In this document: piece after piece, positions 22,508 to 50,202 of the stretch
How the letters are laid out: each line of letters begins with the position of its first letter
Numbering within the stretch: the first letter of the stretch is position 1
Source: Hyphococcus sp.
Lineage (GTDB): Bacteria; Pseudomonadota; Alphaproteobacteria; Caulobacterales; Parvularculaceae
Assembly (NCBI GenBank): GCA_021776375.1
Contig: JAJFGA010000051.1
Span: 186,001 to 250,000, forward strand
Direction of reading: 5' to 3'
Length of the DNA stretch: 64,000 bases
Notes under the pieces: model-generated
Told to the model about the DNA's origin: nothing
The model's database searches: none
Seen by the model: the letters and a program-made list of their open reading frames with translations, nothing else
Made by a program: the position numbers and the translations under genes

Positions 22508-24286
22508 TTACCGTTTCTTTTGGAAAAGACCTGACAGGCTGAATTTTGGTTTTGCTATATTCGCTTCACTGCGACCGATTAAATGCGCAGACAGCTCACG
22601 GATGGAACCGGCCGCCTTCGACTTTGGACTCACATCAACAATTGGCGCAGCATTGGTGGTCGCGGCGCCAAAAATCTGAGGTTCCCAATGGAACACAGCG
22701 GCTGGCTTCAGACCGACATGCTCGATAAACTGATCGGGCTGAACTGCCGACATTTTCGGATCAAATTGATTAATCACCAAAGTCGGCGGCGCATCATTGG
22801 GGCGTGCAGCGCTTAAAATATCAACCAGCTGTTTGGTGTTGCGGAAGGAGGCAAGATCCGGCGTCGCGGTGATGACAATTTCATCCGCCGTCGTCAAAAT
22901 CCGCTTCGACCAGCTGCACCACACATGGGGCACATCAACCACTACCGTTGGGGCTGAGCCGCGCACCACATCAAGCACGGTTTCATAGGCCTGATCGTCA
23001 ACATCATACTCCCTGTCGAGAGCGCTCGGCGCCGTGAACAGGCTAAGATGATCGGTATGCTTTTGTAGTAGGCGATCAAGCAAGACATCGTCCAACCGCT
23101 CCGGCGAACTCAGTGCTTCATAAAGACCCGCAGAAGCTTCTTGATCAAAATCGAGGCTCGCAGTGCCGAACGCCAGATCAAGGTCGAGAATGATGGTGTC
23201 GCTCTGATATTCCTCTGCAGAACACCAACCAATATTATGGGCAATTGTCGATGAGCCAACGCCGCCGCGTGCGCCAACAAAAGCCAGCGTGCGCCCAATC
23301 GGCGGTGCGGATGGATCTACATACAGATCGGCGATCGCCTTGATGATCTGAAGGGGTGAGTGCGGTCGGACAATATATTCGCTGATACCCTGTGCAATAA
23401 GCTCACGATAAAGAATAATATCGTTGACCTGACCGATAATGACAACTTTTGTCGATGGGTCACAAACTTCGGCAAGCTCGCCGAGCTGGGCGAAAATTTC
23501 AGCCCCGGATGCAAGCGTTTCCAAAATAACCAAATTCGGCGTCGCTGCAGTCTGGAATTGATCGACCGCTTTGGCCAGCCCGCCCATGTGAATGGTGAGG
23601 TGTGCTTTGGAAAGACGGCGATCAATCGCAGCCTTTTCAAGTAGCGTCGTCATCGCCGGCGTTTCGCAAAATGCATGGATTGAAATTCGCGGCACCGGCC
23701 GGTGATCAACTTCGCTTTCATCAAGCTCAGTCATAGCGCCGCCATAGACGTCAGCCTCAACCATTGCGCCCGCGGCGACAAGCGCGCCTGACGTTTCGGC
23801 AACCGTAGCGTCAGCGTCTTCTTCCGCAGACGTCGGCGTTTCCGCGACAGCCGGTTCCTCGGCTACGTCAGCGGGCTCGGCGACTGCATCGGCGGCATCT
23901 GCCTGCGACGCCGCACTGTCGTCGTCGACGTTTCCTTCAAACTCCTCGCTAACATCAAACGATGCATCAATGTCTTCATCCAGAAAATCTTCGTCGTCAA
24001 AATCCTCATCAGACAGATCAAGATCGGCAAGATCTGCTTCATCGAAATCTTCTTCCCCGAGAGCTGCAAGCTCCTCGTCGGAAAGCTCTTCGTCCAACCA
24101 GCTTTCGTCCGACAACCCCTCCAATCCATCGTCGTAAGGCGCGACGTCTGTGGCTGACGCGTCCGCTGGCGCATCTGCATCACCGCCCGTGCTCGGGCCA
24201 CCGTCAGCACCGAGAGTTGCAGCGCTGTCAGCGACGCCCTGCTCCTCATCCTCATGCTGATAGGCTGTTTCAGCTGCGTTTTTCAT
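22508..24286 (-). CDS. cpaE: Tad pilus localisation protein CpaE (TadZ) with long acidic N-terminus
   Basis: MinD/ParA-like ATPase that positions the Tad machine, usually at a pole. About 592 residues in three parts: a very acidic low-complexity tail (about 1-195, packed with Asp/Glu and short repeats such as LSDEELAAL and LSDEDFDDEDF), a pseudo-receiver domain (about 200-320), and an ATPase domain with the deviant P-loop GARGGVGSST (about 338-347), DLDLAFG and VVDVPHVW. The P-loop lacks the usual second Lys, as in other CpaE. The acidic tail is unlike described CpaE. Start is the ATG at 24286, with GGAG 6 nt upstream; an ATG at 24292 abuts the GGAG. Confidence 0.92.
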   Translation of the reverse strand: MKNAAETAYQHEDEEQGVADSAATLGADGGPSTGGDADAPADASATDVAPYDDGLEGLSDESWLDEELSDEELAALGEEDFDEADLADLDLSDEDFDDEDFLDEDIDASFDVSEEFEGNVDDDSAASQADAADAVAEPADVAEEPAVAETPTSAEEDADATVAETSGALVAAGAMVEADVYGGAMTELDESEVDHRPVPRISIHAFCETPAMTTLLEKAAIDRRLSKAHLTIHMGGLAKAVDQFQTAATPNLVILETLASGAEIFAQLGELAEVCDPSTKVVIIGQVNDIILYRELIAQGISEYIVRPHSPLQIIKAIADLYVDPSAPPIGRTLAFVGARGGVGSSTIAHNIGWCSAEEYQSDTIILDLDLAFGTASLDFDQEASAGLYEALSSPERLDDVLLDRLLQKHTDHLSLFTAPSALDREYDVDDQAYETVLDVVRGSAPTVVVDVPHVWCSWSKRILTTADEIVITATPDLASFRNTKQLVDILSAARPNDAPPTLVINQFDPKMSAVQPDQFIEHVGLKPAAVFHWEPQIFGAATTNAAPIVDVSPKSKAAGSIRELSAHLIGRSEANIAKPKFSLSGLFQKKR

Positions 24287-24324
24287 CGTCATCTCCCTGC
24301 ATATCCCCTTGGGTCATAATTTAA

Positions 24325-48420: not shown

Positions 48421-48504
48421 TTCTTTGTGATTGCGATATATTTTTATTGCTATTAGGGTAGCTATTCAAAATATCCCGGCTTGAAAATCGGAAATGAGGC
48501 TGAA

Positions 48505-49440
48505 ATGAAGAAAATACCTCCCCTTAACGCACTGCGCGTCTTCGAAGCGGCTGCGCGCCATTTAAGCTTTACTAAGGCAGCGGAGGAGCTACATGTGACC
48601 CCCGGCGCGGTCAGCCAGCAGATAAAGGCGCTTGAAGATTTTCTGCAAACACCAGTGTTTCGCCGCGAAAAGCGCTCGCTGCTCTTAACTGACGAGGCCC
48701 AGGCGAGCCTGCCGGTATTGCGCGAAGGCTTCGACAAGCTCGCGGAGGCCGGAAAAATTCTCGCGGCCAAATCTGACACTGGCCGACTGACTGTGTCGGT
48801 GGCGCCGTCCTTTGCCTCCAAATGGCTGGTTCCGCGGCTCGACCGGTTTCAGAGCGATCATCCGGAAATTGACGTCTGGGTGTCGGCGGACATGGATGTG
48901 GTCGATTTCGCGGTCCACGATGTCGATGTCGCCATCCGCTATGGCAGCGGACACTATCCCGGGCTGATCGTCGATCACCTGATGGCCGAAAAAATTGTCC
49001 CGGTTTGCAGCCCGCATCTGCTGACTGGCGACAATCCGCTGAAGGCGCCGGAAGGCCTGACCCATCACACGCTGCTGCATGATTCCAGCACCGATAAGGA
49101 TGAGAGTTGCCCAACCTGGCCGATGTGGTTGAAGGCCGCCGGAGTGTGCCACAAGCAAGGCGACCGCGGTCTGAAATTCAACCAGTCAAGCCTGGTGATT
49201 GAGGCGGCGGTGGCGGGTAAGGGCGTGGCGCTGGCTAAAGCGGCGCTGGCGCTGGCCGACCTTGAAGCCGGGCGGCTGGTCATTCCGTTCGACATGACGA
49301 CGCCAACGGAGTTTGCCTATTACATCGTCCACCCGCCGTCCAAAACGTCTTCGTCGATGGTCAAAGCGTTTGCCGCATGGCTTAAAAATGAAGCCGCGAC
49401 CAGCCTTGATGCATCGGACTTGCGCGAAGCTGCCGCCTGA
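48505..49440 (+). CDS. LysR-family regulator, GcvA-like
   Basis: 311 residues: N-terminal winged HTH (MKKIPPLNALRVFEAAARH, FTKAAEELHVTPGAVSQQIK; about 1-60) and an effector domain (about 95-300) with PSFASKWLVPRL, typical of the GcvA branch. Start ATG at 48505 with GAGG 5 nt upstream; a TTG at 48481 is also open. Divergent from the cysG operon, so it may control sulfur genes, although GcvA-type proteins usually regulate glycine or beta-lactamase genes. The effector is unknown. Confidence 0.88.
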   Translation: MKKIPPLNALRVFEAAARHLSFTKAAEELHVTPGAVSQQIKALEDFLQTPVFRREKRSLLLTDEAQASLPVLREGFDKLAEAGKILAAKSDTGRLTVSVAPSFASKWLVPRLDRFQSDHPEIDVWVSADMDVVDFAVHDVDVAIRYGSGHYPGLIVDHLMAEKIVPVCSPHLLTGDNPLKAPEGLTHHTLLHDSSTDKDESCPTWPMWLKAAGVCHKQGDRGLKFNQSSLVIEAAVAGKGVALAKAALALADLEAGRLVIPFDMTTPTEFAYYIVHPPSKTSSSMVKAFAAWLKNEAATSLDASDLREAAA

Positions 49441-49452
49441 GACGTGACCAAG

Positions 49453-49503
49453 CCTAGACCACGTTCACAATTTATAGGATCGGAGAACGTGGCCTAGGTT
49501 CTT
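49453..49503 (+). terminator. Terminator after the LysR gene
   Basis: CCTAGACCACGTTC (49453-49466) and GAACGTGGCCTAGG (49485-49498) pair with 13 of 14 positions (one A-C mismatch in the DNA sense) around 18 nt, followed by TTCTTT. It lies 12 nt past the LysR stop. It also separates that transcript from the opposing small RNA. Confidence 0.6.
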
Positions 49504-49556
49504 TAGTCGTCGCGCATGCGAACCCAAAAACCGCGTACACTTTTTATGAATGCACT

Positions 49557-49680
49557 CAAAAAAATGCGCCCACGCTTGATTGGGGGGAAGCCAAGCGCGG
49601 GCGCCGATAAGCGGTTTGGGGGGGAGGAGAAAACAACCGCTTTCATATTTGCAAATGGCGTCTGACGCGCGGTTTTCAAG
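49557..49680 (-). ncRNA. Small RNA with two C-rich loops (GsrN/cuckoo-like)
   Basis: About 124 nt between a NifU/IscU-like gene and the LysR gene. Read on the minus strand: a 5' part with GCGUC-A-GACGC; hairpin 1, AAGCGGUU (49642-49635) with AACCGCUU (49616-49609), 8 bp, 18-nt loop containing UCUCCUCCCCCCC; hairpin 2, GCGCCCGCGCUUG (49604-49592) with CAAGCGUGGGCGC (49578-49566), 13 bp with one G-U pair, 13-nt loop with CUUCCCCCC; then A and seven U (49564-49558). Hairpin 2 is a textbook Rho-independent terminator. The CUCCUCC loop is complementary to ribosome-binding sites (GGAGGAG). This matches known alphaproteobacterial C-loop sRNAs. Not confirmed by homology. Confidence 0.72.
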
Positions 49681-49752: not shown

Positions 49753-50202
49753 CTATGTTGTCGCAACCGCTTTTTTATTGCCCAACTGATCGAGACAATC
49801 GCAAATCGCTTCAAACACCAGCATGGTCGAGGTATGGCGCTGCGGATAGTCGCGGATGGTCTCTAACAGAGCGAGATCGCGCCAGCGCACGCCCGTTGGC
49901 GGTGGTCCGCCGTCTTTCAACATCGCAAGCATTTGATCGCGCAATCGGTAAAGCTCATCGACGGATGCGCCAGCAATATTGCGTGCAACAATCGAGGCGG
50001 CGGCCTGCCCGAGGGCGCAGGCGCGCGCCGTCATGCCGAATTCTGCAACCACGCCATCCTTAAGCGTCAAATCGACCTCAATTTCTGAACCACACACACG
50101 GCTTATTTTTTTCGCCGTGGCATCCGGCTCCGCCAGCCGGCGCGCCGCCGGGATCGTCGCCGCCGCATCCAATATGCCGCCGGAATAAAGATCGCTAATC
50201 AT
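49753..50202 (-). CDS. Iron-sulfur cluster assembly scaffold (IscU/NifU-N-like)
   Basis: 149 residues of the IscU/NifU N-terminal fold. The three cluster-ligand Cys are visible: VCGSEIEV (Cys about 37), ACALGQAAASIV (about 62) and EAICDCLD (about 135). It is shorter and more divergent than housekeeping IscU, like the alphaproteobacterial stand-alone proteins often found near hisI. It follows the pirin gene by 21 nt. The small RNA begins 40 nt past its stop. Confidence 0.83.
   Translation of the reverse strand: MISDLYSGGILDAAATIPAARRLAEPDATAKKISRVCGSEIEVDLTLKDGVVAEFGMTARACALGQAAASIVARNIAGASVDELYRLRDQMLAMLKDGGPPPTGVRWRDLALLETIRDYPQRHTSTMLVFEAICDCLDQLGNKKAVATT

Follow-up and report, generated by a model that had tools for sequence, protein, structure and literature searches.

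Between a gene for a NifU-like iron-sulfur scaffold protein and a convergent gene for a LysR-type regulator, the minus strand of the window (the whole 64,000-nucleotide stretch of DNA analysed here, from a metagenome-assembled genome of 3.1 Mb, 84% complete, of the Marinicaulis-type Parvularculaceae) very likely carries a real and conserved small RNA gene. With a probability of about three in four, we read it as a stand-alone gene of the Parvularculaceae for a trans-acting sRNA, which would be driven by the heat-shock sigma factor RpoH and would silence mRNAs via C-rich loops. This reading rests on how the gene is built, on its conservation and covariation and on the promoter pattern, the action in trans being deduced from anatomy and precedent. 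RNAs of this kind, with stems that are unrelated, appear again and again in distant bacteria, either through shared ancestry or through repeated reinvention; to this question the present element adds a well-anchored case, a single locus whose neighbours are fixed, whose stems covary and whose promoter pattern would tie the sRNA to the heat-shock sigma factor. To our knowledge no sRNAs have been described in the Parvularculaceae; the element is carried by a named isolate, Marinicaulis flavus SY-3-19 (71.6 bits), which makes its expression and targets accessible.

Read directly from the sequence, the minus strand at 49557-49680 contains two consecutive hairpins followed by U7 (Table 1). The stem of hairpin 1 (AAGCGGTT/AACCGCTT, 8 bp, 49642-49635 paired with 49616-49609) closes the 18-nt loop GTTTTCTCCTCCCCCCCA, also written GUUUUCUCCUCCCCCCCA, which holds CUCCUCC and seven C. 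The four-nucleotide linker ATCG leads to hairpin 2, whose stem (GCGCCCGCGCTTGG/TCAAGCGTGGGCGC) comprises 14 pairs including G-U (49604-49591 with 49579-49566) and whose 11-nt loop holds C6, a single A standing between this stem and T7. Energy minimisation folds the sequence into just these hairpins (-37.6 kcal/mol, z = -3.4), and equal stability was reached in 1 of 200 dinucleotide shuffles. Sequence and fold thus bear out the first-pass annotation, which had described an 8-bp hairpin with an 18-nt loop, a 13-bp hairpin whose loop has six C, and seven U on this strand, and its statement that no protein is encoded here holds as well: Pfam gives no match for the 103-aa ORF that overlaps the element, and no reading frame is maintained across the five closest species, in which the length of loop 1 ranges from 18 to 20 nt. 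The start of the sRNA is placed some 7 nt past the -10 and its end at the last U. A simple terminator scan, which admits loops of at most 8 nt, did not pick up the terminator of hairpin 2, and a similarity search in plasmids gave no match.

Table 1. Features of the element and its neighbours, in window coordinates
Feature	Position	Strand	Basis
GcvA-like LysR regulator gene; downstream neighbour, convergent, synteny anchor	48481..49440	+	Pfam HTH_1 + LysR_substrate
U7 tract, completing the intrinsic terminator	49558..49564	-	sequence
Predicted sRNA, ~89 nt	49558..49646	-	inferred from sequence, fold and promoter pattern
Hairpin 2; terminator stem of 13-14 bp, loop CTTCCCCCCAA at 49580-49590	49566..49604	-	sequence + fold
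Hairpin 1; 8-bp stem, 18-nt loop at 49617-49634 containing CTCCTCCCCCCC	49609..49642	-	sequence + fold
Putative -10 CCATTT, 15 nt past CTTGAAA	49653..49658	-	alignment of relatives
Putative -35 CTTGAAA, RpoH (sigma-32)-type	49674..49680	-	alignment of relatives, hsp20 geometry, RpoH1 consensus
NifU-like iron-sulfur scaffold protein gene; upstream neighbour, synteny anchor	49753..50202	-	Pfam NifU_N

The orthologous intergenic regions were recruited by means of the NifU-like protein, and hence independently of the RNA; its gene was found in 59 of the 60 relatives searched, and the relatives fetched in this way are Marinicaulis and other Parvularculaceae. Both hairpins, with C-runs in both loops, lie between the nifU-like gene and lysR in 26 of 30 syntenic loci, lysR being convergent in all 30. 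One further locus (L029) retains the terminator hairpin only, and the element is absent from the syntenic intergenic region in three (L028, L047 and L050). A run of C4-C8 occupies both loops in 26/26 loci while the stems vary freely, a statistic that is partly circular because the hairpin finder, which left the stems unconstrained, demanded C4 in the loops, so that the independent anchor for these loci is synteny. Loop 1 reads CUCCUCCCCCCC in the clade of the window or else CUCUCCCCC, and loop 2 is a plain C-run. In a MAFFT alignment of the 26 loci, changes on both sides of the pair were found in 15 of the 19 consensus pairs (8 of 9 in the helix of hairpin 1, over 26 species; 7 of 10 modelled pairs in hairpin 2), with 78 compensatory cells against 27.6 in shuffles; the sequence of the stems therefore changes, yet their pairing is kept. 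Likewise, 91.9% of the cells are paired, compared with 79.1% when shuffled and at most 44% with the partners slid. Conservation with compensatory change is the decisive test against chance, and it was on the conservation of stems and loops that the first-pass annotation had staked its reading beforehand; both persist, with such changes, in the 26 loci.

The covariance search in related genomes that had also been proposed there indicates a single-copy gene. In the genome of the window itself the covariance model (R1) has one match, at C47:235554-235645, corresponding to window positions 49554-49645, with 81.4 bits. Of 28 genomes from the genus, 24 gave one strong match each, and further matches came from other genera of the Parvularculaceae, in one of which (G029) the match likewise occupies the syntenic position. 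At E <= 0.001 the model finds a match in 45 of the 299 genomes searched from the order, and outside the family the matches are weak (34-46 bits). These outside matches may be analogues rather than homologues, because the only one inspected (L076 in genome G049, of another family of the order; 1501-1590, 46 bits) also has two C-loop hairpins in another context, adjoining a TonB-receptor-like reading frame and away from the nifU-like and lysR genes. As a separate observation, at least three genomes of the genus (L244 in G021, L245 in G019 and L248 in G006, at about 1501-1630 of each locus) have a second and different element with two C-loop hairpins, which follows immediately on the stop codon of a gene with a DM13 domain (PF10517); it is ar14-like, with up to 45.5 bits, and is possibly a 3'-UTR-derived C-loop sRNA.

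Upstream of hairpin 1 the window has the pattern CTTGAAA-N15-CCATTT, the -10 of which ends 10 nt ahead of the hairpin, and a TTG is found 36-43 nt ahead of hairpin 1 in 25 of the 26 homologous loci. The published RpoH1 consensus is CTTGAA-N15-16-CCTATAT (PMC4843759). An RpoH-pattern score, which was devised after inspection of the sRNA loci, reaches at least 9 in 15 of 26 of them, compared with 1 among 2000 length-matched background windows. The same score reaches this value in 19 of 30 hsp20 upstream regions from the genus and the order, compared with 4 of 400 background windows, and since it was written on the sRNA loci and then picks out hsp20 regions, this result constitutes independent support. 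An hsp20 example reads CTTGAAC-N15-CTATCT, the shared geometry being CTTGA..-N15-C[CT]AT.T, and the groESL promoters have CTTGACg-N15-CCTAAAT together with CIRCE. In the hsp20 gene of the window genome itself (L210) the pattern was not seen (score 7), and a minority of the sRNA loci (L033-L036 and L045) have a different -35/-10, GTTG...CATAT, along with a different conserved upstream word. A generic sigma-70 scan found no promoter, and the RpoH pattern emerged only from the aligned relatives. Heat-shock control of the sRNA is thus likely as far as the sequence goes, the conserved RpoH-type promoter, first recognised in this analysis, predicting a heat-shock-driven RNA of about 89 nt. The upstream words ahead of the -35 were recorded separately: TAACG..TTTGTCAT occurs in eight loci (L027, L030, L040, L042, L044, L046, L048 and L049) and ATGACA.AAATATAAC in the minority group; the two are approximately reverse complements of one another, and the conserved word is possibly an activator site.

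As regards the downstream neighbour, the conserved start of lysR is probably the ATG at 48505, and in a solved-structure search the best relative of its product is a glycine-cleavage-system activator. LsrB/VtlR was considered as the regulator of the element and set aside, the adjacent LysR protein being GcvA-like in that search; by eye, no published VtlR box (GCAT-N3-TG-N3-T) is evident upstream. Right past the lysR stop, at 49440-49515, stands an imperfect palindrome (CCTAGACCACGTTC...GAACGTGGCCTAGG) with three more copies in the genome at 85-86% identity, which we read as a REP-like or small mobile element.

Two other accounts would make the element a part of the nifU-like transcription unit. 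Situated past the end of the nifU-like gene in the same orientation, and closing with a good terminator (hairpin 2 and U7, of which the hairpin stands alone in L029), the element could be a mere terminator or 3' UTR structure, hairpin 1 being accessory and the C-loops incidental. This would leave unexplained the C-runs in both loops of 26 species, the covariation of hairpin 1 and the promoter pattern at a fixed distance from it, as well as the three syntenic loci that have no element, and we hold it to be very improbable. A somewhat better, still unlikely, account retains the same C-loop action for an sRNA cut by RNase E from the nifU-like mRNA: strand and close downstream position agree with it, and the CcsR RNAs do mature from a longer (ccaF1) transcript (PMC10253847, PMC8307010). 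However, the RpoH-type promoter sits between the nifU-like gene and hairpin 1, and the distance from gene to RNA is very variable, exceeding 600 nt in L026 for example.

The neighbour on the other side suggests a local function, in which loop 1, through CUCUCUCC, would pair with the ribosome-binding site of lysR, which reads GGAGAGAG in many relatives. Complementarity is present in several relatives, with lysR ranking 1/90 in G016, 15/89 in G004 and 18/89 in G022, and the synteny with lysR is retained. In the window's own genome, however, lysR ranks 25/55, and the average over genomes is not significant, so that lysR was rejected as the primary specific target; GGAGA-type ribosome-binding sites are, moreover, general in the genus, as in groES. 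We hold this account, too, to be very improbable.

For the preferred reading, that of a stand-alone trans-acting sRNA, the following course of events can be proposed. RpoH would initiate transcription just ahead of hairpin 1 and hairpin 2 with U7 would terminate it, giving an RNA of about 89 nt that comprises little beyond the two hairpins, each of which would expose an unpaired, C-rich loop resembling an anti-Shine-Dalgarno sequence. On heat or protein-damaging stress the sRNA would accumulate, and either loop could pair with G-rich ribosome-binding sites (GGGAGA or GGAGG types) in a group of mRNAs. This would keep ribosomes from binding and would probably make the mRNAs decay faster; transcription, dependence on RpoH, redundant use of the loops, silencing and an involvement of Hfq are the steps that we infer. 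There are experimental precedents: NfeR1 (ar14) silences ntrB through anti-SD loops (PMC10746234), B11 of mycobacteria can use either of its two C-loops to repress a target that carries a G6 tract (PMC10470900), and the CcsR RNAs are dependent on RpoHI/RpoHII (PMC10253847, PMC8307010). By analogy, an action by masking of ribosome-binding sites is plausible. The duplex energies of loop 1 favour sequences before start codons over gene bodies in 5/5 genomes, an effect mostly of base composition; among 60 shuffled loops, 3 did as well in the own genome and 5-17 in four relatives, so that any fit of the loop to ribosome-binding sites over and above base composition is weak. A pilot comparative ranking of 39 window genes gave no significant target. 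Its leader, a gene for a CpaE/BcsQ-like ATPase at 22511-24292 on the minus strand with the ribosome-binding site CAGGGAGAUGACGAUG, has the top mean rank over four genomes, where about 0.2 such would be expected by chance after correction, and is a candidate in the sense of a lead only. At its widest the reading would make of the element a Parvularculaceae-specific heat-shock family, independent of ar14, CcsR and 6C, and a broad translational brake masking many G-rich ribosome-binding sites in the RpoH response, an extension that we offer tentatively and regard as somewhat doubtful.

It remains to relate the element to known C-loop RNAs. RNAs whose hairpins stand in series, with anti-SD loops that stay constant on hypervariable stems, have been described with two, three and four hairpins (PMC3927594), and two hairpins, variable covarying stems and C4 or longer in both loops are what the 26 loci display. 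At curated thresholds the Rfam scan, likewise proposed in the first-pass annotation, gave no match in the whole window and none in 20 related loci, the nearest models (6C, ar14 and CcsR1) all remaining below threshold. That annotation had regarded a C-loop in a terminator hairpin as unusual, which finds no support: such a loop is normal in this class, CcsR1, ar14 and 6C each carrying a C-rich motif in every serial hairpin loop. Its view of an sRNA akin to the cuckoo and alpha-r RNAs stands in so far as there is a gene, with promoter, covarying stems and terminator, and with anti-SD-like loops; its analogy with GsrN is loose, because GsrN uses the general-stress sigma factor and usually lies near phyR/ecfG, and the element has an RpoH-type promoter. 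The host of GsrN, Caulobacter, we take to belong to the same order by the taxonomy used here. GsrN resembles the element in its six-C loop, which in GsrN pairs with mRNA rich in G, but it has one 5' C-loop instead of two, and the element is flanked by the nifU-like gene and lysR in all syntenic loci, away from phyR/nepR/ecfG. The sigma-EcfG consensus is GGAAC-N16-17-CGTT; by eye, none was seen in the promoter region of the window or in the upstream sequences of relatives, and the RpoH-type pattern takes the promoter position. GsrN has a sigma-EcfG promoter, activates katG and is usually encoded near phyR/ecfG, to which gsrN of C. crescentus is itself an exception (PMC5869019).

The CcsR1-4 RNAs of Rhodobacter sphaeroides (RF02791) share with the element a series of hairpins that have C-rich anti-SD loops and of which the final one is the terminator, and RpoH-type control, which here is a pattern only. 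They differ in forming a tandem array, against one strong copy per genome, in a promoter that precedes ccaF1 instead of standing directly before the sRNA, and in the loop (CCUCCUCCC, here CUCUCCCCC or CUCCUCCCCC); CcsR1 scores 18.5 bits in the window and 35.3 in the best relative, against a gathering score of 65.3, and DUF1127 (CcaF1, the co-transcribed partner gene of CcsR) was not found in G000 or the other genus genomes searched. With ar14/NfeR1 (RF02344, cuckoo-type, Rhizobiales), for which silencing by ribosome-binding-site pairing has been demonstrated in the case of NfeR1, it has in common hypervariable stems, a constant anti-SD loop and a promoter of its own. In contrast, ar14 occurs in several copies, has three hairpins with CCUCCUCCC in the loops and is controlled by LsrB/NtrC, whereas the element is single, has two hairpins with other loops and an RpoH-type promoter; the ar14 model gives 24.5 bits in the window and at most 29.8 in syntenic relatives (gathering score 58.8), and no match above cut-off over 40 genomes. 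The closest architecture is that of 6C (RF01066, Actinobacteria), with two stem-loops each bearing a run of about six C, and M. abscessus B11 is a functional C-loop parallel. However, 6C belongs to a distant phylum and stays below its curated score in all sequences tested (30.1 bits in the window and 44.5 in the relative L065, against a gathering score of 47), and the resemblance is more likely due to convergence than to common descent. Since all these Rfam scores are sub-threshold and the two-hairpin, C-loop anatomy matches the class, we assign the element to a new family of its own among the C-loop ("cuckoo"-type, anti-SD) sRNAs, a class already known; undescribed, single-copy and family-restricted, it stands outside ar14, CcsR, 6C and GsrN.
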